Program-made: the position numbers and the translations under genes
The notes under the pieces: model-generated
Told to the model about the DNA's origin: nothing
Seen by the model: the letters and a program-made list of their open reading frames with translations, nothing else
Databases searched by the model: none
Shown: positions 3,817 through 17,347 of the stretch, one piece after another
Position numbering within the stretch: position 1 is the stretch's first letter
Layout of the letters: each line of letters starts with the position of its first letter
From: an uncultured Hyphomicrobiales bacterium
Lineage (GTDB): Bacteria > Pseudomonadota > Alphaproteobacteria > Rhizobiales > Xanthobacteraceae
Assembly: GCA_903839845.1 (NCBI GenBank)
Contig: CAIMEA010000018.1
Location: 1-50,255, forward strand
DNA length: 50,255 nucleotides
Direction of reading: 5' to 3'

Positions 3817-4137
3817 GACAAACCTCCCGATGGAACTACCGGGCTTATCCGCAAAGGTCGTGCCAATCGTCCACGCGGGCCGTTAAGCGGCTTAAGAGCC
3901 TGATACGACGTCGAAAGCCGTCACCGGCCAAGATTTAGGCAGGCGGCAAACCTTGAGCTATTGCATACAGTAGACACATATTTGCCTAAATATTCGGCAT
4001 AAAATAGATGCTGCATAAAGTTAGGCGATTGGCGCGTGACGCTCGGTACGCCGCGCCACGGGTCGCTTGCGGGAAAAATCTCCTGCGTCATAGTCGCCTT
4101 TCCGGCGGCGAACGCGCCGCAGAATACCGGTCCGAGA
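3817..4137. promoter_or_regulatory. Divergent intergenic region with inverted 9-bp repeat
   Basis: 321 bp between the divergent binding-protein and decarboxylase genes, with an AT-rich stretch at about 3960-4025. ATTTAGGCA at 3933-3941 recurs exactly in inverted orientation at 3983-3991 (TGCCTAAAT), and a related GTTAGGC lies at 4020-4026. GCC-N9-GGC at 3984-3998 overlaps the second copy. I see no small gene here. The layout fits a shared control region with operators for one regulator, but no regulator is identified. Confidence 0.4.
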
Positions 4138-4680
4138 ATGAGCCAAACCACCGCCGCGCCTGCCGACAAACCGTGGCACGAGATCGTGCTGGCGATACTC
4201 AAAGCCAACGACGTCAAACTGATCGTCTATGTGCCGGACCGCGTCCTAACCAAATTGATCGCGGCGCTGCATGTCGACTCTTTCTTCACGGTCTTCGCTG
4301 CGACGCGCGAGGAGGAAGCCGTCGGCGTCGTCTCCGGCGCCTATATGGCCGGCTTGCGCGGCGCGGTGCTGATGCAAACCTCGGGCTTTGCCACGCTGCC
4401 GAACGCGCTCGCCTCGCTGGTGGCGCCGTCGCAGATTCCGGCGCTGCTGTTCGTGTCGGAACGCGGCACGCTCGGCGAATTCAATCTCGGCCAGGCTCTG
4501 GTCGCCAAGACGATGCGGCCGGTGCTCGATGCACTGGCCATTGAAAATCACACCATCACCCGGCACGACGAACTGGCCTTCATCGTCGATCGTTCGATCA
4601 AGCAGGCTTATGCGACGCAGGCGCCGGTGGTGTTCATCCTGTCGCCCTTGTTGACCGGCGGAAAGGTGTTCGCGGCATGA
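4138..4680 (+). CDS. Thiamine-diphosphate decarboxylase, alpha (PYR) subunit, sulfopyruvate/phosphonopyruvate decarboxylase type
   Basis: 180 residues from the ATG at 4138 (MSQTTAAPADKPWHE); the frame is open upstream to 4036, but the conserved part begins here. The protein matches the N-terminal PYR half of ThDP decarboxylases: VKLIVYVPDRVLTKLI, then TREEEAVGVVSGAYMAG with the Glu that activates ThDP, then QTSGFATLPNALASL. The length and the split into two genes resemble ComD/ComE sulfopyruvate decarboxylase, and the phosphonopyruvate decarboxylase family is close. It overlaps the beta-subunit gene by 4 bp, and the two should form one enzyme decarboxylating a 2-oxo acid in the cytoplasm. The actual substrate is not shown by the sequence. 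No phosphoenolpyruvate mutase or sulfolactate genes are nearby. Confidence 0.8.
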   Translation: MSQTTAAPADKPWHEIVLAILKANDVKLIVYVPDRVLTKLIAALHVDSFFTVFAATREEEAVGVVSGAYMAGLRGAVLMQTSGFATLPNALASLVAPSQIPALLFVSERGTLGEFNLGQALVAKTMRPVLDALAIENHTITRHDELAFIVDRSIKQAYATQAPVVFILSPLLTGGKVFAA

Positions 4681-5273
4681 GCAGCGCCTTTCATAATCTT
4701 AATGTGATGAGCCGCCTCGATCTGACGCGGCGGCTGGTGGCGCTGCTCAAACGTGACGAGGCGGTAATCGGCGGCATCGGCAATGCCAATTTCGATCTGT
4801 GGGAGACCGGCCAGCGGCCGCAGAATTTTTACATGCTCGGCAGCATGGGGCTGACGATCCCGATCGCGCTCGGCGTCGCCATCGCCCAGCCGAAACGCCA
4901 TGTCGTCGCGCTCGAAGGCGACGGGTCGCTGCTGATGCAGCTCGGCTGTCTGACGACGGTGGCGATGCAGGCGCCAAAGAACCTGACGATAGTGGTGTGG
5001 GACAACGGCATCTATCAGATCACCGGTTCGCAGCCGACCGCGAGCCAATCGACCGCCGATATCGTCGCCATCGCGCGCGGCGCCGGCATCGCCAACAGCG
5101 CCTGGGCCGCCGAAGAAGGCGAGTTCGAAAAGCTGATGGCGGGCGCGCTTGACGGCGGCGGGCCGAGCCTGATCGCCGCGCGCATCGATGGCGAACCCGG
5201 TGTCGGCAAGACCGAGCGCGATCCGGTCGCCATCCGCGCCAGCTTCATGCGCGGGATCGGCGGCAAGAAGTAG
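4677..5273 (+). CDS. Thiamine-diphosphate decarboxylase, beta (PP) subunit
   Basis: 198 residues, starting in the ATGA overlap with the alpha gene; MSRLDLTRRL at 4707 is an alternative start. It carries the ThDP/Mg-binding motif: GDGS at about residues 81-84, then about 25 residues later VVWDNGIYQITGSQ, where the usual NN is DN. LGSMGLTIPIALGVAIAQ precedes it, as in ComE and the C-terminal half of acetolactate-synthase-like enzymes. It supplies the pyrophosphate-binding half of the split decarboxylase. Both genes are divergent from the peptide-type importer, so transport and decarboxylation may be linked; this is inference. Confidence 0.82.
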   Translation: MSSAFHNLNVMSRLDLTRRLVALLKRDEAVIGGIGNANFDLWETGQRPQNFYMLGSMGLTIPIALGVAIAQPKRHVVALEGDGSLLMQLGCLTTVAMQAPKNLTIVVWDNGIYQITGSQPTASQSTADIVAIARGAGIANSAWAAEEGEFEKLMAGALDGGGPSLIAARIDGEPGVGKTERDPVAIRASFMRGIGGKK

Positions 5274-5440: not shown

Positions 5441-8389
5441 GTGGAGCCGTTATCGATCGAGCAGGTGCTGGCCGCCGAAGCCGAGGCCATTCACGACCTG
5501 ACCAATCCCGAGACCAAGACGATCGTCGATGAACTGAAACGGCTCGCCGCCGGCCAGGAGCACGAAAGCAACCGGTACGACAAGGACGCCGACCGACGCA
5601 GCGGCAAGAACGAAGAGCGGAATTGGGTCGCCAACCGCAAGGCGTTCTATTGCCAACTCGGCAAACTGCGCAGCGCGGCTTTGTGCTGCTCCGGCGGCGG
5701 CATTCGTAGCGCCACTTTCTGTCTCGGCATTATCCAGGCGCTGGCCAAGGAAACTTTGGCGCCGCTGCCGAAACAGCCGACGACTTTGCCCGACCCCGAC
5801 ACGACCGATTTGCCGCGCCTGCTCGAGCAGGAAGCCAATTTGTCGTTCCTCAGCCGCTTTCATTATCTATCGACTGTATCCGGTGGCGGCTATATCGGCT
5901 CGTGGCTATCAGCCTGGCGCCATCGCGACGATTTCCCCACCGTCTGGCAGAACCTGCGCAGCCGTCCCGATGGTCCCGACGTCGAACCGCCGGAATTGTC
6001 CTGGCTGCGCTCCTACAGCAATTTCCTGACGCCGCGCGTCGGCCTGCTGTCGGCGGATACCTGGACCGGCATCGCCATCTATCTGCGCAACCTGCTGCTC
6101 AACTGGCTGGTGATCATTCCGGCCATCGCGGTGGTTCTGCTGGTGCTGAAATTCGTCATCACCGGCGCGGTCGAGGTGGCGCGCCTCGACACGATCTGGT
6201 GGCCGCAATTCGTTGGCGCGCTCATCGGCGTTGCCTGCCTGCTTCTCGCGCAGGCTTTCACCACCAGCCGCCGGCCGACTCGCCGGCCGCCGCCGCCACC
6301 CGATTGCGCCAAGACGGATGACCCCTACAACGCCACGCAGACGCAGTTTCAATTCAACGATCTGATCTGGAGCGGCCTGTCGGCGTTTTTCGTGACCGGC
6401 GCGCTGACGTCGAAAAGCGGCGCAATGCTGGCCGGCCATGCGTCGGCGTTCGCGGCGATTTTAGTCGGCGCGGCCGTGGCGCTGCCGATCTTTGCCGCCG
6501 GTTGGCTGGCCGGCCGGCCGTCGCACGCGACGCTACGGGATTTTCTCGCCTGGACCGCGTCGGGATTGATTTACGGCGGCCTTGTCGGCCTCGGCGCACA
6601 TCTCTTCACGCTGATGATGCCCTATTCTGATATGCACGCTCCGTCGATCTGGACCATTCTGGTGCCGGTGATTTTCGGCGTGCCGTGGGTTCTGCTGGCG
6701 CAATTGTTCGCCGAAATGATTTTCGTCGGCCTGGTCAGCTACGAAACCAATTCTGACGCGGACCGCGAATGGCTCGGCCGCGCCGCCGGCTGGGTGATGG
6801 CCTCCGGCGTGATCTGGATGCTGACGACCTTCATCAGCTTCGCTGGCGGTTATGTTCTGATCGACCTGGCGCCGGCCTGGGTGTCGCAGATTGTCGCCGG
6901 CGTCGGCGGCGTATCCGGCATTCTGACCGCGTTGATCGGCAAATCCGGCTCGGCCGCGAAGTCGAAGCCCGGCGAGAAGGGCGAAGGCTCGCCGTGGGCG
7001 AAGATCGGCATGGCCATCGCCGGGCCGCTGTTCGCCGCCGTGCTTGTCGTCGGCATTTCAATCACGCTCGATCTCGTGTTGCTCGGCGACTCGCTGATGA
7101 AGGGGCTCACCGACGAGCTATGGACCTATGGCTATATTTACTTGTGGCTCGGCATCGGTTTTTTCGCGGCTCTATTCGTGGCGACGCTCGCCTCGCGCAA
7201 GATCAATATCAACCGGTTCTCGATTCACGCCCTTTATCGCAACCGGCTGGTGCGCGCCTATCTCGGCGCCTCGCGTCAGGAGCGCTGCCCCGACCAGTTC
7301 ACCGGCTTCGACGGCAAAGACAATCTGAAAGCCCACCAGCTTTGGCCGCCGAAGCCTTACGAGCCGACCGGCCGCAACACGTTCTGTCTGTTCCATGTCG
7401 TCAACATCACGCTCAATGTCGTGAAAGCGACGCGGCTGGCCTGGCAGCAACGCAAGGCCGAATCCTTCACCGTCAGCCCGCTGCATTCCGGGGCGGCTTT
7501 TAAAGGCTATCGCTTGAGCACGGAATATGGCGGCGACACGCCGCCTTGCGGCATCTCGCTCGGCACCGCGATGGCGATCTCCGGCGCCGCTGCCAGTCCG
7601 AACATGGGCTATCACTCGACGACGTCGACGGCGATCCTGCTGGCGCTGTTCAACGTGCGGCTCGGCTGGTGGCTCGGCAATCCCGGCAAGGAAGGCAACG
7701 ACACCTATAAAGAGGAAGGCCCGTCGACCGCGATCCGTCCGTTTGTCGAGGAAACCTTCGGCCTGACCACCGACACCAAGCCGTGGGTCTATTTGTCCGA
7801 CGGCGGCCATTTCGAAAATCTCGGCATCTACGAAATGGTGCGGCGGCGCTGCCGCTTCATTCTCGCCATCGACGCCGGCTGCGATCCGGATTTCCAGTAT
7901 GAAGATCTCGGCAATGCCTTGCGCAAGACCTACATCGATCTCGGCGTGCGCATCGAATTTCCCGACCTCGGCGACCTCAAGAACCGTCCGAAAGCCAAAG
8001 AGCTGCAGAGCGCGATCGACAAATGCAACGCGTTGCACCAGGAGGTGCGGCCACGTTCGCCGATTCCGTATTATGCCATCGGCACCATCGATTATCGCAG
8101 CGCCGACGGCGATGACTGCGACAACGGCGTCATCCTTTACATCAAGCCGGCCTATCACGGCACCAGCTGGGTCGAGGGTGCCGGCGTGCGCAGCTATGCC
8201 GACGCCAATCCGGCGTTCCCGCATGAGCCGACCGCCGACCAATGGTTCAGCGAGTCGCAGTTCGAGAGCTACCGCTCGCTGGCGCTGGATATCGCCAGCA
8301 CGTTCATGAAAGGCGACAAAATTTTCCCGGGCGCGCAGGCGACCCTAGCCGACATGCTGCGGTCGATGCGGCCGACGGCACGGCCGTGA
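5441..8389 (+). CDS. Membrane-embedded patatin-like phospholipase with split catalytic motifs
   Basis: 982 residues from a GTG preceded by a G-rich ribosome-binding site. The N-terminal cytosolic part has the oxyanion-loop motif CSGGGIRSA (residues 83-91) and a nucleophile elbow STVSGGGYIGS with probable Ser147. Residues about 205-590 hold around eight or nine hydrophobic helices (for example LLLNWLVIIPAIAVVLLVL and IGMAIAGPLFAAVLVVGI). The C-terminal part carries the patatin Asp motif, YLSDGGHFENLGIY, with Asp787. The catalytic dyad is thus about 640 residues apart in sequence, with the membrane domain between. Patatins hydrolyse acyl ester bonds of membrane lipids. The gene heads a three-gene set with a cytochrome c lipoprotein and a GMC-catalase fusion, suggesting lipid turnover linked to oxidation. 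The membrane arrangement is read from hydrophobicity only. Confidence 0.82.
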   Translation: MEPLSIEQVLAAEAEAIHDLTNPETKTIVDELKRLAAGQEHESNRYDKDADRRSGKNEERNWVANRKAFYCQLGKLRSAALCCSGGGIRSATFCLGIIQALAKETLAPLPKQPTTLPDPDTTDLPRLLEQEANLSFLSRFHYLSTVSGGGYIGSWLSAWRHRDDFPTVWQNLRSRPDGPDVEPPELSWLRSYSNFLTPRVGLLSADTWTGIAIYLRNLLLNWLVIIPAIAVVLLVLKFVITGAVEVARLDTIWWPQFVGALIGVACLLLAQAFTTSRRPTRRPPPPPDCAKTDDPYNATQTQFQFNDLIWSGLSAFFVTGALTSKSGAMLAGHASAFAAILVGAAVALPIFAAGWLAGRPSHATLRDFLAWTASGLIYGGLVGLGAHLFTLMMPYSDMHAPSIWTILVPVIFGVPWVLLAQLFAEMIFVGLVSYETNSDADREWLGRAAGWVMASGVIWMLTTFISFAGGYVLIDLAPAWVSQIVAGVGGVSGILTALIGKSGSAAKSKPGEKGEGSPWAKIGMAIAGPLFAAVLVVGISITLDLVLLGDSLMKGLTDELWTYGYIYLWLGIGFFAALFVATLASRKININRFSIHALYRNRLVRAYLGASRQERCPDQFTGFDGKDNLKAHQLWPPKPYEPTGRNTFCLFHVVNITLNVVKATRLAWQQRKAESFTVSPLHSGAAFKGYRLSTEYGGDTPPCGISLGTAMAISGAAASPNMGYHSTTSTAILLALFNVRLGWWLGNPGKEGNDTYKEEGPSTAIRPFVEETFGLTTDTKPWVYLSDGGHFENLGIYEMVRRRCRFILAIDAGCDPDFQYEDLGNALRKTYIDLGVRIEFPDLGDLKNRPKAKELQSAIDKCNALHQEVRPRSPIPYYAIGTIDYRSADGDDCDNGVILYIKPAYHGTSWVEGAGVRSYADANPAFPHEPTADQWFSESQFESYRSLALDIASTFMKGDKIFPGAQATLADMLRSMRPTARP

Positions 8390-8396
8390 GTGTCGA

Positions 8397-8421
8397 CCGG
8401 CGCGGGAAGGCCGCGCGCCGG
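8397..8421 (+). terminator. GC-rich hairpin after the patatin-like gene
   Basis: CCGGCGCG at 8397-8404 pairs with CGCGCCGG at 8414-8421 across a 9-nt loop, about 8 bp after the stop codon. It is followed by GGAATCTTT rather than a clean U-run, so it may be a weak terminator or an mRNA-stabilising structure. Confidence 0.4.
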
Positions 8422-8452
8422 GGAATCTTTAGTTGCACGGCATAAGAGTTTG

Positions 8453-8458
8453 TATAAT
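8453..8458 (+). promoter_or_regulatory. Perfect TATAAT hexamer upstream of the cytochrome c lipoprotein gene
   Basis: TATAAT lies 95 bp before the ATG at 8553 and after the hairpin at 8397-8421. TTGCAC at 8433-8438 is only 14 bp upstream, which is short for a normal -35, so this is a candidate -10 element only. Confidence 0.3.
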
Positions 8459-8552
8459 TATAGACCATCTCAGGTTGTAGTCCGTCCGCCTCGATTGAAT
8501 GGCTTCGCAGATCGCCGTCCGGGTGAAGCGAGCAGATAAGTGGGGGGTTCCA

Positions 8553-11141
8553 ATGGCTTTCCGCCGCTTTGTTATCGGTTTGGCCGCTGTCGCGGCGATC
8601 CTCACTTTGGCCGGTTGCGGCAAGGAGCCCGAGCCCGGCACGGTCCTCGACGAAGCGATGGCGAATGGCCGCGACGCCGACAGTTTCCCCGCCGCCAACG
8701 AAGATTATTTCGCCGACATGGACGGTGGCTACAAGCGCGCCAGCGATCCGTCCGTCGTGCTCACCGAAAACGAGGTGAAGGGCCGCAACAACTGGATCGT
8801 CTGGAGCGGTGGCAATGATCGCTTCTGGGACTACATGGCCAACAATACCTTCGGCGTCTTCGATCTGCTCAAGATCATTTCGTCGTCGCCGCGCATCGGC
8901 TACTGCGTCGGGCCGGACGGCAAGGACTATACGACGTCGGAGTTCGCCTCGCTGACCTTCGAGCAGTGCCAGGAAAAGATAAAGACCGACTCCAAATATT
9001 CCTGGTTCACGCCAAACCGCAGCAACCGTTTCAAATGGTACGGGCTGATTAACGAGCCCTGCTTCACGCAACCCACCAAGCCGGACAAATACGGCCTTTG
9101 GCTCGACATCCGCAACGGCACCGGGCCGGGTTGCGACAAGCCCGATCCCTATGCCGACGAAAAGAAGTATCCCGGCGTTAAATTCGGTTCGCGCGGCAAG
9201 AATATGCCGGTCGGCTCGTTCTATGGCGAGCCCACCGGTGTCGTCGGCCTGCGACTGTTTCCCAACCCGGCTTTCGACGAGAAAGCGGAAAAGAAATGGT
9301 TGGAGGCGATCAAGAAAAATCCCGACGCCTTTTATGCCGACAAGGAATTCTACAACAACAAGGACCTCGTGCGTCCCTATCGCGTCGGCATGTCCTGCGG
9401 CTTTTGCCATGTCGGGCCGGCGCCGACCAACGCGCCGAAGGATCCTGAAAATCCGCAATGGGCCAATCTTAATTCCAATCCCGGCGCGCAGTATTTCTGG
9501 GTCGACCGCATCTTCGTGTGGAATCCGGTCGATGTGAAATCGAACTTCATCTTCCAGCTGTTCCATACGTCGCAGCCCGGCGCGCTCGATACTTCTTTCG
9601 TGTCGACCGACAACATCAACAATCCGCGCACCATGAACGCGGTCTATAACGTGATGCCGCGACTCATCGCCGGTGAGGCCTGGAAAGAAAAGCTGGCCGG
9701 CGGCGGTCTCAACAACAAGCAATTCGACGACTACCCGCAGACCAAGGCGGCGACCAAAGACCTGACTCCGCCGGGCCTGTTCATCCCGAAGGAAACGGTG
9801 TTCACGCCGCGGGTTCTCAAGGACGGATCGGATTCGGTCGGCGCGCTGGGTGCGCTCAACCGCGTTTATCTCAACATCGGCCTGTTCAGCGAGGAATGGC
9901 TGCTGCACTTCAATCCGCTGGTCGGCGGCAAACGCATCACGCCGATTCCGATCGCCACCAACGAAAAGAACTCGTCCTACTGGAAGACGACCGAGAATCA
10001 GACCGCCGATCTGGCGCTGTTCTTCGTCAAGACCGCGCGGCCGGACAAACTCGCCGACACGCCGGAAGGCAAGGCCAATCCGCCGGACGCCGGCAGGCTC
10101 GACCAGGGCAAGACAATATTCGCGGAAAACTGCGCGCGTTGCCATTCGTCGAAGCAGCCGCCGAACGTCTGTCTGTTCGGGCAACCGTGCAAGGCCGGGC
10201 AGATCATCGAGAATACGGGCGCCTATTTCGACTGGATGCGCGCCGAGGTGAAGAAGCCGGATTTCCTCGACAATAATTTTCTGTCGACCGACCGCCGCGT
10301 CTCGATTCAGGAGATCGGCATCAATGCCTGTTCGCCGCTGGCGACCAATGCGATCCGCGACAATATCTGGGACAATTTCTCGTCCGAGACCTACAAGACG
10401 CTGCCGGCGACCGGCAAGGTCACGTTCTATAATCCGATCGATGGCACGCCGTTCGACTACGACATGCCGGGCGGCGGGCGTGGCTATGTGCGCCCCGCGT
10501 CTCTCGTGAGCGTGTGGTCGTCGGCGCCATTTCTGCAGAACAATTCGGTCGGCGATTTCAACGGCGACCCCAGCGTCGCCGGCCGGCTGAAAGCCTTCGA
10601 TCAGGCGATCGAGCAGATGTTGTGGCCGGAAAAACGCGCCAGGGATCCGATCATCGGCAACCAGGTGCCGGGGCCGAGCCATATCCTGCGCACCACCGCG
10701 ACCAGCTGGCTGAAAGTGCCGGCCGGCTATCTGCCGGGCGACCTTAGTTACTTCGCCGGCACCTGGGGCGCGTGGCTGCATTATCTGGCGCCCTGGCTGT
10801 TCACCACCGCCGGCGACCTCGAGATCGGACCGATCCCGAAGGGCACGCCGGTCAACCTGCTCGCCAATCTCAACCCGCTTTCGGAGAGCACCGACCCGAA
10901 AGATCGCATCGCGCACACCAAGAAATTGATCGATCTGGTGCTCAAGCTCAAACACGACCTCAAGTCGTTGCCGCCGAATGCGACCGACGCGCAGGCGACC
11001 GAGGTCTTCGTCAAGCGCGTGCCGGAATTGCTGTCGCTGAACAAGTGTCCCGACTTCATCGTCAACAAGGGACACTATTTCGGCAGCAATCTCGCCGACG
11101 GCGACAAGCGGGCGCTGATCGAGTTTCTCAAGACCATGTAA
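8553..11141 (+). CDS. Large two-haem c-type cytochrome lipoprotein
   Basis: 862 residues from the ATG at 8553, preceded by a G-rich site; the frame is open 18 codons further up, but the signal sequence begins here. MAFRRFVIGLAAVAAIL leads to a lipobox, LAGC, so the mature protein should be a lipid-anchored periplasmic protein. Two haem c sites are visible: CGFCH at residues 282-286 and CARCH at 527-531. The size is far above ordinary mono- or dihaem cytochromes. Conserved-looking stretches between the sites (for example NNPRTMNAVYNVMPRL) resemble nothing I can name with certainty; the dihaem peroxidase/RoxA-type oxygenase group is a possible comparison. Its neighbours, a membrane lipase and a GMC oxidoreductase 40 bp downstream, suggest that it accepts electrons from the GMC enzyme or acts on an oxidised lipid. 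Confidence 0.8.
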   Translation: MAFRRFVIGLAAVAAILTLAGCGKEPEPGTVLDEAMANGRDADSFPAANEDYFADMDGGYKRASDPSVVLTENEVKGRNNWIVWSGGNDRFWDYMANNTFGVFDLLKIISSSPRIGYCVGPDGKDYTTSEFASLTFEQCQEKIKTDSKYSWFTPNRSNRFKWYGLINEPCFTQPTKPDKYGLWLDIRNGTGPGCDKPDPYADEKKYPGVKFGSRGKNMPVGSFYGEPTGVVGLRLFPNPAFDEKAEKKWLEAIKKNPDAFYADKEFYNNKDLVRPYRVGMSCGFCHVGPAPTNAPKDPENPQWANLNSNPGAQYFWVDRIFVWNPVDVKSNFIFQLFHTSQPGALDTSFVSTDNINNPRTMNAVYNVMPRLIAGEAWKEKLAGGGLNNKQFDDYPQTKAATKDLTPPGLFIPKETVFTPRVLKDGSDSVGALGALNRVYLNIGLFSEEWLLHFNPLVGGKRITPIPIATNEKNSSYWKTTENQTADLALFFVKTARPDKLADTPEGKANPPDAGRLDQGKTIFAENCARCHSSKQPPNVCLFGQPCKAGQIIENTGAYFDWMRAEVKKPDFLDNNFLSTDRRVSIQEIGINACSPLATNAIRDNIWDNFSSETYKTLPATGKVTFYNPIDGTPFDYDMPGGGRGYVRPASLVSVWSSAPFLQNNSVGDFNGDPSVAGRLKAFDQAIEQMLWPEKRARDPIIGNQVPGPSHILRTTATSWLKVPAGYLPGDLSYFAGTWGAWLHYLAPWLFTTAGDLEIGPIPKGTPVNLLANLNPLSESTDPKDRIAHTKKLIDLVLKLKHDLKSLPPNATDAQATEVFVKRVPELLSLNKCPDFIVNKGHYFGSNLADGDKRALIEFLKTM

Positions 11142-11181
11142 GGCAGAACCGACACTCGGATAGGGTCGGGGGGAGAGGGCC

Positions 11182-14100
11182 GTGAACGCGCAATCACCTG
11201 GATACGACTATATCGTCGTCGGTTCCGGCGCTGGCGGCGGCGTCGTCGCCGCGCGTCTGGCCGAGGCCGGCCACACCGTGTTGCTGTTAGAGGCGGGCGG
11301 CGATCCGAAACTGCTGCAAGGCGACGGGCCGGTGAGCAAGGATCGGCTGCCGGCTGACTATGAAGTGCCGACCTTCCACCCGATGGCGTCGGAAAACGAG
11401 GCGATGAAGTGGGACTTCTTCGTCCGCCATTACGCCGACACCGTGCAGCAGGAGCGCGACGACAAATTCGTCAAGGCGAAGGACGGCGTCTTGTATCCGC
11501 GCGCCGGCACGCTCGGCGGCTGCACCGCGCACAACGCGATGATCATGATCTATCCCAACAACGAGGATTGGGACCACGTCGCGCAATTAATGGACGATCC
11601 GTCCTGGGGCGCCAAGCCGATGCGGCGCTATTTCCAGCGGCTGGAAAACTTCCATCATCGCTTCCTGATGCGGTGGCTGTATAAGTTGACCGGTCTCAAT
11701 CCGAGCCGGCACGGCTTTTCCGGCTGGCTGCAAACCGAGAAAGCAATTCCGAAAGCGGCGATCCGCGACCACGAACTGGTCGACATCATCACCAAATCGG
11801 TGTGGACGGTGGTCTGGGAATTGTCCGGCCTGTGGGAGCGCATCACCTGGTTCTTCAAGGGCAAGGGCGATCCCAACGACTGGCGGCTGGTCAAGAAGAA
11901 TGCCTTTGGCGTTCATTACCCGCCACTGACCACGCGCGGCCACGCCCGCAACGGCACGCGCGAATTCGTGCTCGACGTCGCGCGCCGCCATCCCGACCGG
12001 CTTAAAATCGAACTGAATGCGCTGGCGACAGAGGTGCTGTTCGACGAGCGCAATTGCGCCATCGGCGTCGCCTATCTCAAAGGCGCCAGGCTGTATCGCG
12101 CCGCCTACGATCCGTCGAAGACCGCCGGCACGGCGCAGAAGGCCTATGCCGCGCGCGAAGTCATCCTCTCGGGCGGCGCCTTCAACACGCCGCAACTTCT
12201 GATGCTGTCCGGCATCGGGCCGAAGGAGGAAATGGAAGCGCTCGGCATCAAGACGCGGGTCAATCTGCAGGGCGTCGGCAAGAATTTGCAGGATCGCTAC
12301 GAGGTCGGCGTCGTCAGCCGGCTGAAGCAGCCGTGGACCGTGCTGAAAGGCGCGACTTTCACCACCAGCGACCCGCAGTACAAGCACTGGAATCACTGGT
12401 GGCGCAAAGGCGTCTACACCACCAATGGCGCGGCGATCGCGGTCATCAACCGCTCGCAGGTGTCGCGGCCGGTGCCGGACCTGTTCATGTTCGCGCTGCT
12501 CGGCAAGTTCAGGGGCTATTTCCCTGGCTACTCCAAACTGATCGCCGACAATCTCGATGTGATGACCTGGTGCATTCTCAAGGCGCACACGGAAAATCAC
12601 GGCGGCACCGTCAAGCTGCGCACGAACGATCCGCTCGATCCGCCGGCGATCAACTTTCATTATTTCCAGGAGGGCACCGACAAGGACGGTGAGGATCTCG
12701 ACTCGGTCGTCGATGGCGTCAAGTTCGTGCGCACGTTGACCGCGCCGATCGCCGACCTGATCGCGGAAGAGCAAATTCCCGGCAAGGCGGTCCAGACCCG
12801 CGAGCAGATCGGCCAATTCGTCAAGGACAATGCCTGGGGCCATCACGCCTCCTGCACCTGCGCCATCGGCCCGCGCAGCGACCCGCTGGCCGTGCTCGAC
12901 TCGAACTTCCGCGTTTACGGCACCAGCAATCTGCGCGTCGTCGATGCGTCGGCGTTCCCGAAAATTCCCGGCATGTTCATCGTCTCGGCGGTTTACATGA
13001 TCGCCGAGAAGGCCGCCGACGCGATCCTGGCCGCGGCCGGCCACGGCAAACTGCCGAAATGCGTCTATGGCGAAGGCTTCTGGTGCAAGGTTCGCAACGC
13101 GCTGTGCTGTGTCGCCGGCTTTCTCGGCTGCATTGCGCATTTTCTGGCACCGGCCGCCAAGTCGCTGCTCGCCGTCATCGGCGGGGTCGTGGCGGCGCTG
13201 GTCGTCATCGTGCTGGCGAACTGGCTTTATTTCGAGGTGCCGCCGGTCAAGCCTGATAACGCCCGCGAGCAGGCGGCCATCGATGGTCTCGTCAAGCTCG
13301 CGGTCGCGCAGCAACAGGCGATCGACAAAACGCAAGGCGCGGCGGCTTCCGCCGCCAATGCCTGCGTCAAGGCCGATGTAACGGTCAATGCGTTTCTGTC
13401 GCCGCGGCTCAATGTCGGCGTTTTCGCCGGCACTCCCGGCGTCGAGAAGAAATACAAAGCGTGGGTGCGCTTCGCCAACGCGCGCGATACGCCGGGCGAC
13501 GACCGCACGCCCGACTTTCGCAGCATGGCGATTAAGCTGATTGGCGTCAGAGGCGAACGCAACGCGCTGCCGACCGACGAAGGCAATACGCAGGACCTGT
13601 TGTTCAACGGCCACGACGCTTTTTTCGCCGGAGACCCGAAGCAGCTTCTGGATTTCCATTCGGCCTGCGGGAAGGCCGGCGGCTGTGACGGGCTCAAAAA
13701 CCCTTTCGTCGCCTGGCACTACATCACCCATCCGCGGGGCGCCTATAATTTGTGGAAGGGCGACAAGGTCTATCCGACCTTGCAAAGCGTCGCCTGGTCG
13801 AGCGTAACGCCGTTCGCGCTGGGCGACTCGCAGGTGAAATACGCGGCGACGCCCTGCGACCAGCAGGCGCAATATGGCGGGCCGGGCGGTTCATTTTATT
13901 ATCTGCAGCAACGGTTGCAGGCGCGGCTCGATCCCGCCAACAACAATCACGTCTGCTTCGACCTGCAGGTGCAACTGCGCAACGATCCGCCGCATCAGCC
14001 GATCGACAACGCATTGGTGCGATGGCGCGGCGCGGTCACCGGCTGGCAAAAGGTCGCGCGTATCGACATCTACCCGCAGGGCTTTACGTCACCGGCGCAG

Positions 14101-14283
14101 CAGCAGTTCTGCGAGCGGCTCGCCTTCAATCCGTATCAGGGCCTGAAAGTTCACGCGCCGCTCGGCGGCATCAACCGGGCGCGCGGCGCCGTTCTGTCGG
14201 CCGCGCAGGATGTTCGTTTGCAGGCCAATGGCTGGAAGCGCTTTGCCGCCGGCGAAATTACCGGCGACGAGACCTTCAAATAG
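11182..14283 (+). CDS. GMC oxidoreductase - transmembrane helix - catalase-like fusion protein
   Basis: 1033 residues from a GTG with a GGGGGGAGAGGG leader. Residues 1 to about 620 form a GMC flavoprotein: Rossmann motif VVGSGAGGG (12-20), first GMC signature around LGGCTAHNAMIMIYPNN (about 110-127), second signature GGAFNTPQLLMLSGIGP (about 331-347), active-site pair His554-His555 in WGHHASCTC. A hydrophobic segment at about 659-684 (LLAVIGGVVAALVVIVLANW) should cross the membrane. Residues about 695-1033 match the catalase-like superfamily (YKAWVRFANAR, LFNGHDAFFAGD, and near the end LAFNPYQGLKVHAPLGG followed by INRARGAV). By my alignment from memory, the catalytic distal His of catalases is Ala722. 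The C-terminal GMC Asn/His is also not evident in FPKIPGMFIVSAVY. Flavin oxidation of an alcohol or sterol-like substrate is likely; the role of the second domain is open. Confidence 0.85.
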   Translation: MNAQSPGYDYIVVGSGAGGGVVAARLAEAGHTVLLLEAGGDPKLLQGDGPVSKDRLPADYEVPTFHPMASENEAMKWDFFVRHYADTVQQERDDKFVKAKDGVLYPRAGTLGGCTAHNAMIMIYPNNEDWDHVAQLMDDPSWGAKPMRRYFQRLENFHHRFLMRWLYKLTGLNPSRHGFSGWLQTEKAIPKAAIRDHELVDIITKSVWTVVWELSGLWERITWFFKGKGDPNDWRLVKKNAFGVHYPPLTTRGHARNGTREFVLDVARRHPDRLKIELNALATEVLFDERNCAIGVAYLKGARLYRAAYDPSKTAGTAQKAYAAREVILSGGAFNTPQLLMLSGIGPKEEMEALGIKTRVNLQGVGKNLQDRYEVGVVSRLKQPWTVLKGATFTTSDPQYKHWNHWWRKGVYTTNGAAIAVINRSQVSRPVPDLFMFALLGKFRGYFPGYSKLIADNLDVMTWCILKAHTENHGGTVKLRTNDPLDPPAINFHYFQEGTDKDGEDLDSVVDGVKFVRTLTAPIADLIAEEQIPGKAVQTREQIGQFVKDNAWGHHASCTCAIGPRSDPLAVLDSNFRVYGTSNLRVVDASAFPKIPGMFIVSAVYMIAEKAADAILAAAGHGKLPKCVYGEGFWCKVRNALCCVAGFLGCIAHFLAPAAKSLLAVIGGVVAALVVIVLANWLYFEVPPVKPDNAREQAAIDGLVKLAVAQQQAIDKTQGAAASAANACVKADVTVNAFLSPRLNVGVFAGTPGVEKKYKAWVRFANARDTPGDDRTPDFRSMAIKLIGVRGERNALPTDEGNTQDLLFNGHDAFFAGDPKQLLDFHSACGKAGGCDGLKNPFVAWHYITHPRGAYNLWKGDKVYPTLQSVAWSSVTPFALGDSQVKYAATPCDQQAQYGGPGGSFYYLQQRLQARLDPANNNHVCFDLQVQLRNDPPHQPIDNALVRWRGAVTGWQKVARIDIYPQGFTSPAQQQFCERLAFNPYQGLKVHAPLGGINRARGAVLSAAQDVRLQANGWKRFAAGEITGDETFK

Positions 14284-14304
14284 CGCGCACACGGCTTCCC
14301 GCCG

Positions 14305-14354
14305 CCAGAGCCCCGGGTTTGATGGAATCAAAGCCGGGGCTCTGGTCTTTTGTT
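14305..14354 (+). terminator. Rho-independent terminator after the GMC-catalase gene
   Basis: CCAGAGCCCCGG at 14305-14316 pairs perfectly with CCGGGGCTCTGG at 14334-14345, the stem is extended by TTTGAT/ATCAAA inside, and TCTTTTGTTT follows. It lies 21 bp after the stop codon and closes the three-gene set. Confidence 0.85.
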
Positions 14355-14403: not shown

Positions 14404-15027
14404 CTAGTCCATAATATCGGCCAGCATCGCCATGCGCACCAGATCGGACAGGCTGTTGGCCGCCATCTTGGTCATGACATTGGCGCGGTAGATTTCGACC
14501 GTACGCGGACTGATGCCGAGGTCGAAAGCAATTGATTTGTTGGCCTTGCCGGCGACCAGACCATCGAGCACCTGGCGTTCGCGGTTCGACAGTTCCGCCA
14601 GCTTCTCCGTAATCTCGCCAAGCTCGGCCTTGCGCTTGACGACGCCGGCATCGCGGTTGAGCGCGGCGCGCACCGCGGCGATCAACTGGTCGTCGTCGAA
14701 CGGTTTTTCCAGGAAATCGATCGCGCCAATTTTCATGGCCTCAACCGCCAGCGATATGTCGCCGTGCCCGGTAATGACGATCACCGGCAGTTCCGGGTTG
14801 GTGTCTTTCAGGCTGCGCAGCAGATCGATGCCGCTCATTCCCGGCATGCGCACATCGGTGATGACGCAGCCGTGCTCGACCCGTGGCAGGATGTCGAGAA
14901 AGGCCTTGGCGTGCTCGAAGCCGCGCACCGTCATCCCGGCCGTCTTCAGCAGGAATTCCAGCGACTGCCGCACGGCGTCGTCGTCATCGATCACATAAAT
15001 GATCGGCTCAGGCTGCATCGTCGACAT
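14404..15027 (-). CDS. fixJ: Two-component response regulator FixJ
   Basis: 207 residues, standard FixJ length. The receiver domain has the acidic pocket DDDD (14-17), phospho-acceptor Asp58 in [10 protein letters not shown] and Lys108 in LEKPF. The LuxR/FixJ-type helix-turn-helix follows at about 140-200 ([20 protein letters not shown], then [15 protein letters not shown]). Phosphorylated by FixL at low oxygen, it should activate fixK. The start overlaps the fixL 3' end by 20 bp, a translational coupling typical of fixLJ operons. The stop is followed by a dispersed repeat that separates it from the convergent GMC-catalase gene. Confidence 0.95.
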
Positions 15028-16513
15028 CCCCTTCCTCTACGGCGGCGAGCGTGAAATGGAAAGTCGTTCCGCCGCCGGGATTGGCTTTCGCCCAGATTCG
15101 CCCGCCATGCGCCTCGATAATGGTGCGGGAAATCGACAGGCCGACGCCCATGCCCTGTCGCTTGGTGGTGATGAATGGCTGGAATAGCTGCTCGGTGATT
15201 TCCGGGGCGATGCCGGAGCCGCTGTCGGAGACGCTGACGCGGATCTGACTGCCTCCGTCCGGAACCACTGCGATGGTTAGTTCGCGCACGGCTGCGCTCT
15301 CCATGGCGTCCATGGCGTTGCGGATCAGGTTGAGCAGCACCTGCTGAATCTGGACGCGGTCGGCTAGAACCAAATCGACGGTCGGGTCGAATTGAAACTG
15401 GACGCGAATGCGGCGGTCCTTGACGCCGACCAGCGCCAGCGCGCTTGCCTCTTCGACGAGCTTGATGATGTTTTCCACCCGCCGCTCGCTTTCGCCGCGC
15501 GAGACAAAGTCACGCAGGCGGCGGATGATCTGCCCGGCGCGCATGGCCTGATCGGCGGCTTTGCCGAGCGCGTCGTTTAATGTCGCCGATTTTTCATCGC
15601 CGGCGCCTTCGAGCATGCGCTGCGAACCCTTGAGATAATTCGAGATCGCCGCCAGCGGCTGGTTGAGTTCGTGCGCCAAAGTCGAGGCCATCTCGCCCAT
15701 CGCCGTCAGCCGTGAAATGTGCACCAGTTCGGACTGCAATTCCTGCAACCGCGCTTCGGTCTGTTGCCGTTCGGTCAGGTCGCGAATAAAGCCGGTGAAA
15801 AAACGCTGTGTGCCGGATTTCATCTCGCCGACCGCCAGTTCCATCGGAAAGGTCGAGCCGTTCATGCGCTTGCCGACGACGACGCGGCCGATGCCGATGA
15901 TGCGGCGTTCGCCTGTGGACATATAGCGGTTCAGGTAGCCATCGTGGTTTTCGCGATAGGGCTCCGGCATCAGAATTCGCACGTTCTGCCCGATCGCCTT
16001 GCTGGCGGGACAGCCGAACAGCCGCTCGGCGGCCGAACTGAATGACTGGATGATGCCGTGATCGTCGATGACGATCATCGCTTCCGGGACGGTATCGAGA
16101 ATCGATTGCAAATGCGCTTCGCGCGCCAGGGCATTGCGGGTCATGATTTTGGCGCGCATCTGACTTCGGTGTACCTGTTCGCCGCCCCAGGAGACGCCGA
16201 TGGCCAGCACCAGAAAAGTGGCCCCGCTGACGATTGACACCGTGGAAAAGTCGGCGAGGTCGGGCGTCAGCGCATAGGCGGCGGCAAGGCTGAGGGCGGT
16301 TGCCAGCAGCCCGGGCCCGCGACCGCCGATTCCGGCGGCGATCAAAACCGGCGGCAGAAAATAGAGAAACAGCGAGTCGGTATGCAGAATCGGCAACAGC
16401 AGCGCCCGCGCCGCCAGCGCCAGCGCCACGGCGGTCGGCGCCGCGCCGTAGCGCCACAATTGGTGACCCTCGTCCTTGGCAAAAACCCTAGATGAATCAA
16501 TGGTATATGGCAT
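15008..16513 (-). CDS. fixL: Oxygen-sensing haem PAS histidine kinase FixL
   Basis: 501 residues. Residues about 24-110 contain four hydrophobic segments, so it is a membrane-bound FixL like that of Sinorhizobium. The PAS domain (about 135-250) has the FixL haem pocket: axial His190 in [10 protein letters not shown], Arg196, and IIGIGR ending at Arg210, matching His200, Arg206 and Arg220 of Bradyrhizobium FixL. The phospho-accepting His281 is in [11 protein letters not shown], and the ATPase domain has [10 protein letters not shown] and [10 protein letters not shown]. Oxygen release from the haem switches the kinase on, and the phosphate passes to FixJ. The gene is divergent from fixK across 147 bp. 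Confidence 0.95.
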
Positions 16514-16567
16514 GAGCCCGAAGGGTGCGAGGCGGCTGGCGGGCGCGCCCGGGCACGAACCCGGCCG

Positions 16568-16588
16568 CCTATGGGAAACTACCTATGG
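16568..16588 (+). promoter_or_regulatory. Direct repeat CCTATGG-N7-CCTATGG in the fixL-fixK intergenic region; possible FixJ site
   Basis: CCTATGG at 16568-16574 recurs at 16582-16588 with a 14-bp period, ending 72 bp before the fixK ATG. On the minus strand the spacer reads TAGGTAGTTTCCCATA, which looks like the FixJ-binding site of the Sinorhizobium fixK promoter as I remember it. FixJ activation of fixK is established in rhizobia; the site assignment is inference. Confidence 0.4.
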
Positions 16589-16660
16589 TGATTATCTGAA
16601 TTTCGACAGCCTGACGCCAGCGGTATCGAAGACCATCGAATTCATCGAGGGCCAAGCGTC

Positions 16661-17347
16661 ATGCACACCCAGTCCCTGACCCACCGCAATTCCTACCCGC
16701 TGCCGACCGCTCGCGTCGCGCGCAACGTCCCGCCGCCGGCCTTGCTCGGCGAATCGATCGAACTGATGGGCGCGGCCATGCCCTTCGCCCGCAACGGCGA
16801 AATCTACGGCGAGAACGAGCCGGCCGAATATCTCTACAAGGTCATCAGCGGCGCGGTGCGCACTTACAAGGTGCTGAACGACGGCCGCCGCCAGATCGGC
16901 GCCTTCTACCTGCCGGGCGATATTTTCGGTCTTGAAATCGGCGAGGTGCATTCCTTCTCGGCAGAGGCGATCGTCGAATGCAAGGTGATGCTGATCAAGC
17001 GCAGCAGCGTGGTCGCGCTCGCCGGACGCAGCCATGACGTCGCCAACCAGCTCTGGACCATGACGGCGAAGGAATTGCAGCGCGCGCAGGCGCACATCAT
17101 GCTGCTGATCAAGACCGCGCAGGAGCGCGTCGCCGGCTTCCTGCTCGAGATGGCATCGCGCGCCCCGGCCGGCAACACCGTCGAACTGCCGATGTCGCGT
17201 CAGGATATCGCCGATTATCTCGGCCTAACCATCGAAACCGTGTCGCGCACGCTGACGCAGCTGGAAAATTCGGCGGCGATTTCGGTGCCGAGTTCGCGCC
17301 GTATCGTGCTGCGCAACCAGGCCGCGCTCAACCGCTTGAACGCCTGA
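16661..17347 (+). CDS. fixK: Crp/Fnr-family transcriptional regulator FixK
   Basis: 228 residues. The cyclic-nucleotide-like beta-barrel (about 30-140) includes YLYKVISGAVRTYKVLNDG and FYLPGDIFGLEIGE. The C-terminal winged helix has RQDIADYLGLTIETVSRTLT with the Glu-Ser-Arg recognition triplet of FNR/FixK, predicting binding to TTGA-N6-TCAA. Only one Cys is present (in ECKVMLIK), so it cannot carry an FNR-type Fe-S cluster; this is the FixK2-type arrangement where oxygen sensing is delegated to FixLJ. It is divergent from fixL. Matching boxes lie before several genes between 19 and 33 kb. A terminator follows at 17400. Confidence 0.93.
   Translation: MHTQSLTHRNSYPLPTARVARNVPPPALLGESIELMGAAMPFARNGEIYGENEPAEYLYKVISGAVRTYKVLNDGRRQIGAFYLPGDIFGLEIGEVHSFSAEAIVECKVMLIKRSSVVALAGRSHDVANQLWTMTAKELQRAQAHIMLLIKTAQERVAGFLLEMASRAPAGNTVELPMSRQDIADYLGLTIETVSRTLTQLENSAAISVPSSRRIVLRNQAALNRLNA

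Follow-up and report, generated by a model that had tools for sequence, protein, structure and literature searches.

The window, a contig of 50,255 nucleotides from an uncultured Hyphomicrobiales bacterium (CAIMEA010000018.1, taken in its entirety; source genome, 4.04 Mb), carries a row of three long genes at positions 5441–14283. They encode a patatin-like protein (PAT), a dihaem c-type cytochrome (CYT) and a flavoenzyme of the GMC family fused to a catalase-fold domain (CAT); these module names are used throughout. CYT and GMC form the near-obligate core of a modular, mix-and-match cassette with varying accessories. Their functional linkage is strongly supported, because the two co-occur almost constantly and because three different natural fusions connect members of the set. 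Tentatively, and with somewhat less than even confidence, the locus is read here as the form that a modular oxidation cassette takes in this genus, with a lipid as its candidate substrate.

Co-occurrence was followed in 88 loci. Besides the window, these come from 3 of 21 plasmid records, 4 of 198 genomes of the same family (where the other matches are short fragments of cytochromes) and the 80 best-ranked of 425 relatives. The collection therefore leans towards closer kin and includes some near neighbours. Family-profile mapping placed GMC within 10 kb of CYT in 79 of the 88 loci, spanning at least five phyla; 72 of these GMC matches are full-scoring and seven partial, five of which end at a contig end, while those of L034 and L049 do not. 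Where 8 kb was available on both sides of CYT, GMC lay near it in 44 of 47 loci, and it lies within 300 bp and on the same strand in 62/88. One locus (L046) has CYT and a patatin with no GMC nearby. A phylum-wide sample of 398 genomes contained CYT in four and this type of GMC in the same four, adjacent in each, an exact agreement with a chance probability of 1e-9. Mirror-tree correlations, computed on rows free of stops and short pieces, were 0.49 for CYT–GMC (n = 72) and 0.55 for CYT–PAT (n = 16); none of 500 permutations reached them, and both are uncorrected for shared species history.

The accessory modules differ between loci. Catalase-fold proteins occur in 35/88, S143 in 42/88, U432 in 33/88, DyP-like proteins in 31/88 and RoxA/FadCcp-like cytochromes in 10/88. 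S143 (143 amino acids) and U432 (431 amino acids) are conserved uncharacterised proteins (for example L077:14404–16135), and their profiles found no relative in Pfam, NCBIfam or the PDB. In Variovorax and relatives the gene order is CYT-GMC-S143-U432-DYP-CAT; a member of the Gallionellaceae (L077) has a patatin gene upstream of this whole set, and Rhizobium johnstonii plasmid pRL11 has the order CCP-CCP-CYT-GMC-patatin. Tandem FadCcp-type pairs are present in loci such as L026 and L040, and the three-gene set of the window holds no second gene of that kind. A cyclopropane-fatty-acid-synthase-like gene (8560–9825) stands directly upstream of CYT in a member of the Pyrinomonadaceae (L081).

The natural fusions are GMC::CAT in the window and its kin, GMC::PAT (L027), a single frame of 1537 amino acids adjoining CYT on a complete Rhizobium plasmid, and CAT::CYT (L028), a frame of 1200 amino acids in a genome of the same family whose GMC is on another contig. 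A DYP/U432 pair in one open reading frame (L082) was rejected as a fusion because the reading frames overlap. Among 43 genomes of the same genus, six carry CYT, and all six, the source genome included, have the order PAT-CYT-GMC::CAT with the fusion, one patatin being interrupted by a contig end. This arrangement exceeds chance. The locus is patchy within the genus, since the other 37 genomes have no CYT at the threshold used.

CYT belongs to a rare family of proteins of about 850 amino acids and contains exactly two CxxCH motifs, as do all 88 family members. The start at 8499 is only the longest reading; 8553 is the likelier one, since the sequence shows a lipoprotein signal, MAFRRFVIGLAAVAAILTLAGC, beginning there. 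A lipobox pattern was found in 61 of 86 CYT N-termini and a hydrophobic segment in 80 of 86. The first-pass annotation had named CYT a two-haem cytochrome lipoprotein, and this description holds. His841, the counterpart of the axial H641 of RoxA in the GH...LKT end by motif similarity rather than by structure, is kept in 41/41 aligned sequences. Kinship with RoxA and FadCcp is indirect, because it is bridged by the additional dihaem cytochromes of about 500 amino acids found in 10/88 loci: their profile matches RoxA (4b2n, E 3e-26) and aligns with CYT across haem site 2 and the MauG motif (hhalign, 93%). CYT appears to be distant kin of the RoxA, FadCcp and MauG enzymes. A PDB search with the CYT sequence alone returned only short pieces of cytochrome c552. 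In three Acidobacteriota loci (L042, L043 and L050) the first CYT is followed by a second paralogue, shorter or split, which is not one of the RoxA-like extras.

The RoxA-like kinship would also suit a catabolic role in soil bacteria, in which the cassette would break down a hydrophobic natural product or polymer, be it an isoprenoid, a resin, suberin or a lignin-like aromatic, and the patatin would serve as esterase. The listed hosts include many soil and freshwater bacteria, copies occur on Rhizobium and Sinorhizobium plasmids, and major facilitator superfamily and alpha/beta hydrolase genes neighbour some loci. Such a role is nevertheless improbable: no dedicated uptake or ring-cleavage pathway is conserved beside the core in the neighbourhoods examined, and the GMC, CAT and DYP families have no recognised secretion signal.

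The GMC domain passes both Pfam cut-offs (GMC_N, 66.7 bits against 23; GMC_C, 97.5 bits against 24.6). In a profile alignment its catalytic His555 is present in 28/28 sequences, and Phe599 stands in all 28 where Asn or His would be expected; the corresponding residue of choline oxidase is Asn510, its catalytic partner residue. The hydrophobic linker that follows the domain may traverse the membrane once or twice, in keeping with the earlier description of a GMC flavin enzyme tethered by a helix. No signal peptide is visible on GMC, as the start lies only 13 residues before the flavin adenine dinucleotide (FAD) motif.

GMC–cytochrome pairs are a known respiratory design. Gluconate and FAD-glucose dehydrogenase complexes, for instance, join GMC to a multihaem cytochrome and, like the present pair, have a c-type cytochrome beside the GMC flavoenzyme. 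By analogy, GMC could be a dehydrogenase of a sugar, polyol or alcohol, with CYT serving only as its electron acceptor towards the respiratory chain; the invariant CYT–GMC core would fit, and the loss of the MauG-motif His from CYT weakens an oxygenase role. This explanation is rather unlikely. An export signal is not evident on GMC, no small subunit with a twin-arginine translocation (Tat) signal was identified in the neighbour families that recur (a Tat predictor was not applied), and CYT is far larger than electron-transfer subunits. Unlike the gluconate and FAD-glucose enzymes, which have such a small subunit, the cassette uses another cytochrome family and peroxidase-type partners, and a dehydrogenase leaves the patatin, catalase-fold, DyP-like and RoxA-like partners unexplained.

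Structure prediction, proposed by the first-pass annotation for each protein, gave a catalase fold for CAT (AlphaFold model, mean pLDDT score 74.7; best Foldseek match 3e4w, E 6.1e-13) and no significant fold match for CYT. The best PDB match of the CAT family profile is coral allene oxide synthase (1u5u, E 1.2e-7), whose haem-ligand set is given as H67, N137 and Y353 in a passage of PMC5617202. At the proximal position, 22/22 CAT rows outside the window clade have Tyr and 5/5 rows within it have Leu, with Met in one further member of the genus. The distal position is Ala, Thr or Leu in the window clade, and Asn (21) or His (1) among the 22 other rows. As both the haem-ligating Tyr and the distal residue are gone, the CAT domain of the window probably binds no haem. 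The catalase-like fold claimed earlier is therefore upheld without its haem ligands, and the suggestion that electrons or peroxide pass to the fused domain becomes unlikely for any catalase-type haem. Six Cys are conserved in the window-clade CAT; they were set aside as a marker of a periplasmic location, since CAT of L028, which precedes a membrane helix, has as many, and two of these share columns with the window clade.

CAT-family proteins were found in 19 of 372 genomes of the class. Among 11 further CAT loci of the class, a RoxA-like or CytoC_perox-type cytochrome lies directly beside CAT in four (L166, L168, L171 and L172; one match is weak), a DyP-like gene in one, and three alphaproteobacterial loci (L173, L175 and L176) have a fusion to a LodA-type, L-lysine epsilon oxidase-like protein. 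LodA enzymes produce hydrogen peroxide (H2O2). The recurrence of CAT beside dihaem cytochromes and in fusion with H2O2-making oxidases favours a peroxide-centred logic, in which an oxidase would supply the haem partners.

Peroxide could also be what the cassette removes. In a defence or repair role it would clear membrane lipid hydroperoxides or H2O2, with the patatin cutting out oxidised acyl chains for reduction or further oxidation by the flavoenzyme and the haem proteins. Patatin phospholipases suit lipid repair, and the catalase-fold, DyP-like and dihaem proteins jointly look peroxide-related. In Pseudomonas aeruginosa, moreover, the second FadCcp enzyme suppresses hydroperoxide toxicity, as described in a part of PMC4496055. 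Defence is still unlikely: unlike true catalases, 21 of 22 CAT rows outside the window clade have a distal Asn rather than His, GMC should produce peroxide, not clear it, and a system present in 4/398 genomes is rarer than general defence genes.

PAT has the patatin catalytic parts on either side of a membrane insertion. The GGGxR loop, the Ser nucleophile and the Asp-Gly motif are all present in 15/15 aligned homologues, as are the catalytic residues Ser147 and Asp787 themselves; the Ser lies in SxVSGG instead of the textbook GxSxG. With an even number of membrane passages the two catalytic parts would come to lie on the same side, which catalysis requires. The Pfam patatin score of the window protein is 19 bits, below the cut-off of 27.7, which the L077 homologue exceeds (29.7 bits). 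The earlier terms 'split patatin' and 'membrane-embedded lipase' agree with the catalytic residues and the eight hydrophobic segments.

A patatin is found in 21/88 CYT loci, 19 of the window type and two of a Rhizobium type, and the patatin in 10/385 genomes of the class, the window's included. On the CYT tree its presence requires at least ten state changes; this FastTree phylogeny has some open forks and joins two long branches, and presence was judged only where the flanks allowed. The patatin is thus an optional partner of the cassette that stands alone elsewhere. It is very improbable that the window patatin is a bystander on its own transcript and CYT–GMC alone the unit. The 163 bp gap in front of CYT, the absence of the gene from 67/88 CYT loci and the solitary patatins would agree with that, whereas the GMC::PAT fusion on a Rhizobium plasmid, the gain of patatin at several points of the CYT tree and the same order in all six genus carriers speak against it.

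The cassette most likely performs a peroxide- or O2-driven, membrane-associated oxidation of a hydrophobic substrate. Lipid oxidation is a sensible reading because of the kinship with RoxA/FadCcp, allene oxide synthase and lipases. In the proposed direction of flow, PAT would act at the membrane to free an acyl chain or a lipid, and CYT would oxygenate or peroxidise the hydrophobic substrate in the periplasm. GMC would then oxidise an alcohol of the product, make the H2O2 that drives the haem partners (catalase-fold, DyP-like and dihaem proteins), or both. Where its Tyr is retained, the catalase-fold module may handle the peroxide or hydroperoxide; in the window clade it may have turned into a haem-less tether or docking domain on GMC. 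A three-step lipid pathway would be plausible. The joint release and oxidation of a lipid proposed by the first-pass annotation thus gains from the gene linkage and the lipid-enzyme kinship, and loses by the optional patatin and the fused CAT without haem ligands. The neighbourhood comparison suggested there turns out largely in favour of linkage, with the CYT–GMC pair recurring in 79/88 loci and the patatin less closely tied, in 21/88 and alone elsewhere.

Several observations weigh against a lipid-oxidising cassette. The MauG-motif His is present in none of 41 CYT sequences (Leu 32, Gln 7, Val 1, Ala 1, in a profile-based alignment). CYT scores below every RoxA and CytoC_perox cut-off (CytoC_perox 34.7 of 150; RoxC 17.5 of 900; Pfam RoxA-like 12.7 of 26.7), and its AlphaFold model (mean pLDDT 78.9) has no significant fold match: MauG chains make up the top ten and 16 of the 31 listed matches, all sub-significant, the best with E 0.73. 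From its sequence GMC would be cytoplasmic and CYT periplasmic, which leaves a direct coupling unexplained. The GMC profile was itself built from CYT neighbours, and two genomes (G011 and G075) have CYT without such a GMC. Finally, 67/88 CYT loci have no patatin in the stretch examined, and none of the nine other patatin loci of the class has CYT or GMC nearby; among these nine, one matches only weakly and two come from short contigs (4.7 and 6.4 kb).

The FadCcp enzymes are the only biochemical anchor of the lipid reading, and they reach CYT by way of the indirect cytochrome bridge. According to parts of two papers (PMC4496055, PMC5155153), they are a periplasmic fatty-acid dioxygenase and isomerase of P. 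aeruginosa; the hydroperoxide product is toxic without the second enzyme (PMC4496055, likewise in part). The PA2077/PA2078 oleate-diol synthase operon, as these passages describe it, encodes RoxA-like dihaem enzymes that act in the periplasm on unsaturated fatty acids, and the accessory pair of about 500 amino acids found in 10/88 loci is of the same NCBIfam family type, a comparison made by family and not by sequence. The window differs in having no tandem pair, a larger CYT (862 amino acids) that has lost the MauG His, and a GMC partner. RoxA, RoxB and RoxC share with CYT the two CxxCH motifs, the C-terminal GH...LxFLKT end and a membrane or secreted location. Passages of PMC10837239 predict RoxC, too, to be a lipoprotein and give the MauG motif of RoxA-type enzymes as PYxHNGSVP. 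CYT, in contrast, has only sub-threshold matches to the Rox enzymes, and its motif has become PFLLNNSVG.

Coral allene oxide synthase and the mini-catalases, which are catalase-related haem proteins, share the fold of CAT. Stand-alone CAT keeps the Tyr and has Asn for the distal His, whereas the window CAT has neither ligand and is fused to GMC rather than to lipoxygenase. Choline oxidase and fatty acid photodecarboxylase resemble GMC in the GMC_N and GMC_C domains, the FAD motif and the catalytic His; they differ in the Asn/His partner, replaced here by Phe599, and in the added membrane linker and catalase-fold domain. A search of open-licence papers found no description of a CYT–GMC cassette. 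Neither GMC nor patatin appeared in a term search of the first 300,000 characters of an octadecanoid review (PMC11719350), or in passages of a paper on the diheme peroxidase network (PMC6405878).

The features of the locus are collected in the table. The three very large genes in a row with one terminator, as first described, are seen as open reading frames followed by a hairpin and TCTTTTGTTT (−36.5 kcal/mol, z −6.15); the intergenic gaps are 163 bp (counted from 8553) and 40 bp. The genes may share this terminator, and their co-transcription is a candidate. A terminator scan of the window, which cannot see this hairpin whole, gave 16 sites against 10.2 expected. The promoter scan of the window gave nothing useful, and an Rfam search no match. 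The closest named relatives among the listed matches, with a CYT identity of 83–87%, belong to Pseudolabrys and to other metagenome-assembled genomes of Rhizobiales.

Features of the study locus (window positions; T-rich tail of the terminator reaching 14356).
Feature	Positions	Strand	Basis
PAT, membrane-embedded split patatin-like protein, 982 amino acids	5441–8389	+	Open reading frame and residue conservation; Pfam below cut-off
N-terminal patatin part, oxyanion loop GGGIR, nucleophile Ser147	5681–6010	+	Residues 81–190
Inserted membrane region, eight hydrophobic segments	6092–7192	+	Residues 218–584
C-terminal patatin part, Asp787-Gly-Gly	7538–8281	+	Homologue alignment
CYT, dihaem c-type lipoprotein, 862 amino acids	8553–11141	+	Open reading frame; longest reading from 8499
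Haem c site 1, CGFCH	9396–9410	+	Residues 282–286; both Cys and His in 41/41
Haem c site 2, CARCH	10131–10145	+	Residues 527–531; both Cys and His in 41/41
Degenerate MauG motif APFLQNNSVG, Gln662 where the RoxA-type motif has His	10524–10553	+	Profile alignment
GMC::CAT fusion, 1033 amino acids	11182–14283	+	Open reading frame, Pfam domains, kin with same fusion
GMC flavoenzyme domain, His555, Phe599 at choline oxidase Asn510 position	11182–13050	+	Pfam, alignments
Hydrophobic linker, one or two predicted membrane helices	13099–13218	+	Residues 640–679 (about 40)
CAT domain without usual haem ligands, proximal position Leu1005 (14194–14196)	13243–14283	+	Alignment, model, profile
Terminator hairpin	14304–14346	+	Folding energy

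Directly 3' of the locus (14404–17347) lie genes for FixJ (14404–15027, − strand), a PAS-domain FixL (15008–16513, − strand) and a FixK/Fnr-like regulator (16661–17347, + strand), and FixJ/FixL-type genes are also syntenic in L033, L035 and L079. A possible relevance of oxygen-sensing genes beside an oxidative cassette is suggestive only. Just 5' of the locus, on the same strand (4036–5273), is a split thiamine pyrophosphate enzyme resembling the alpha and beta subunits of sulfopyruvate/phosphonopyruvate decarboxylase.

In its boldest form, which must be called doubtful, the proposal is of a categorically new, phylum-crossing system in which a dihaem oxygenase/peroxidase of a new family, obligately paired with a non-canonical GMC, would oxidise membrane lipids, with lipase, catalase-fold and DyP-like modules as plug-ins and, in the genus of the window, a CAT that was once a haem enzyme and now, without haem, holds GMC at the membrane. 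Because both core enzymes depart from the family pattern at a catalytic residue, unfamiliar chemistry is indicated; if the proposal is true, it would amount to an oxylipin-like pathway that uses no lipoxygenase, cyclooxygenase or P450. The cassette is a redox set, conserved and repeatedly fused, in at least five phyla that include legume symbionts and common soil genera. If its substrate is a lipid, tests would be feasible in Variovorax, Rhizobium and other tractable hosts, and the cassette would extend bacterial oxylipin biology, known mainly from the diol synthases of P. aeruginosa, to many environmental bacteria.

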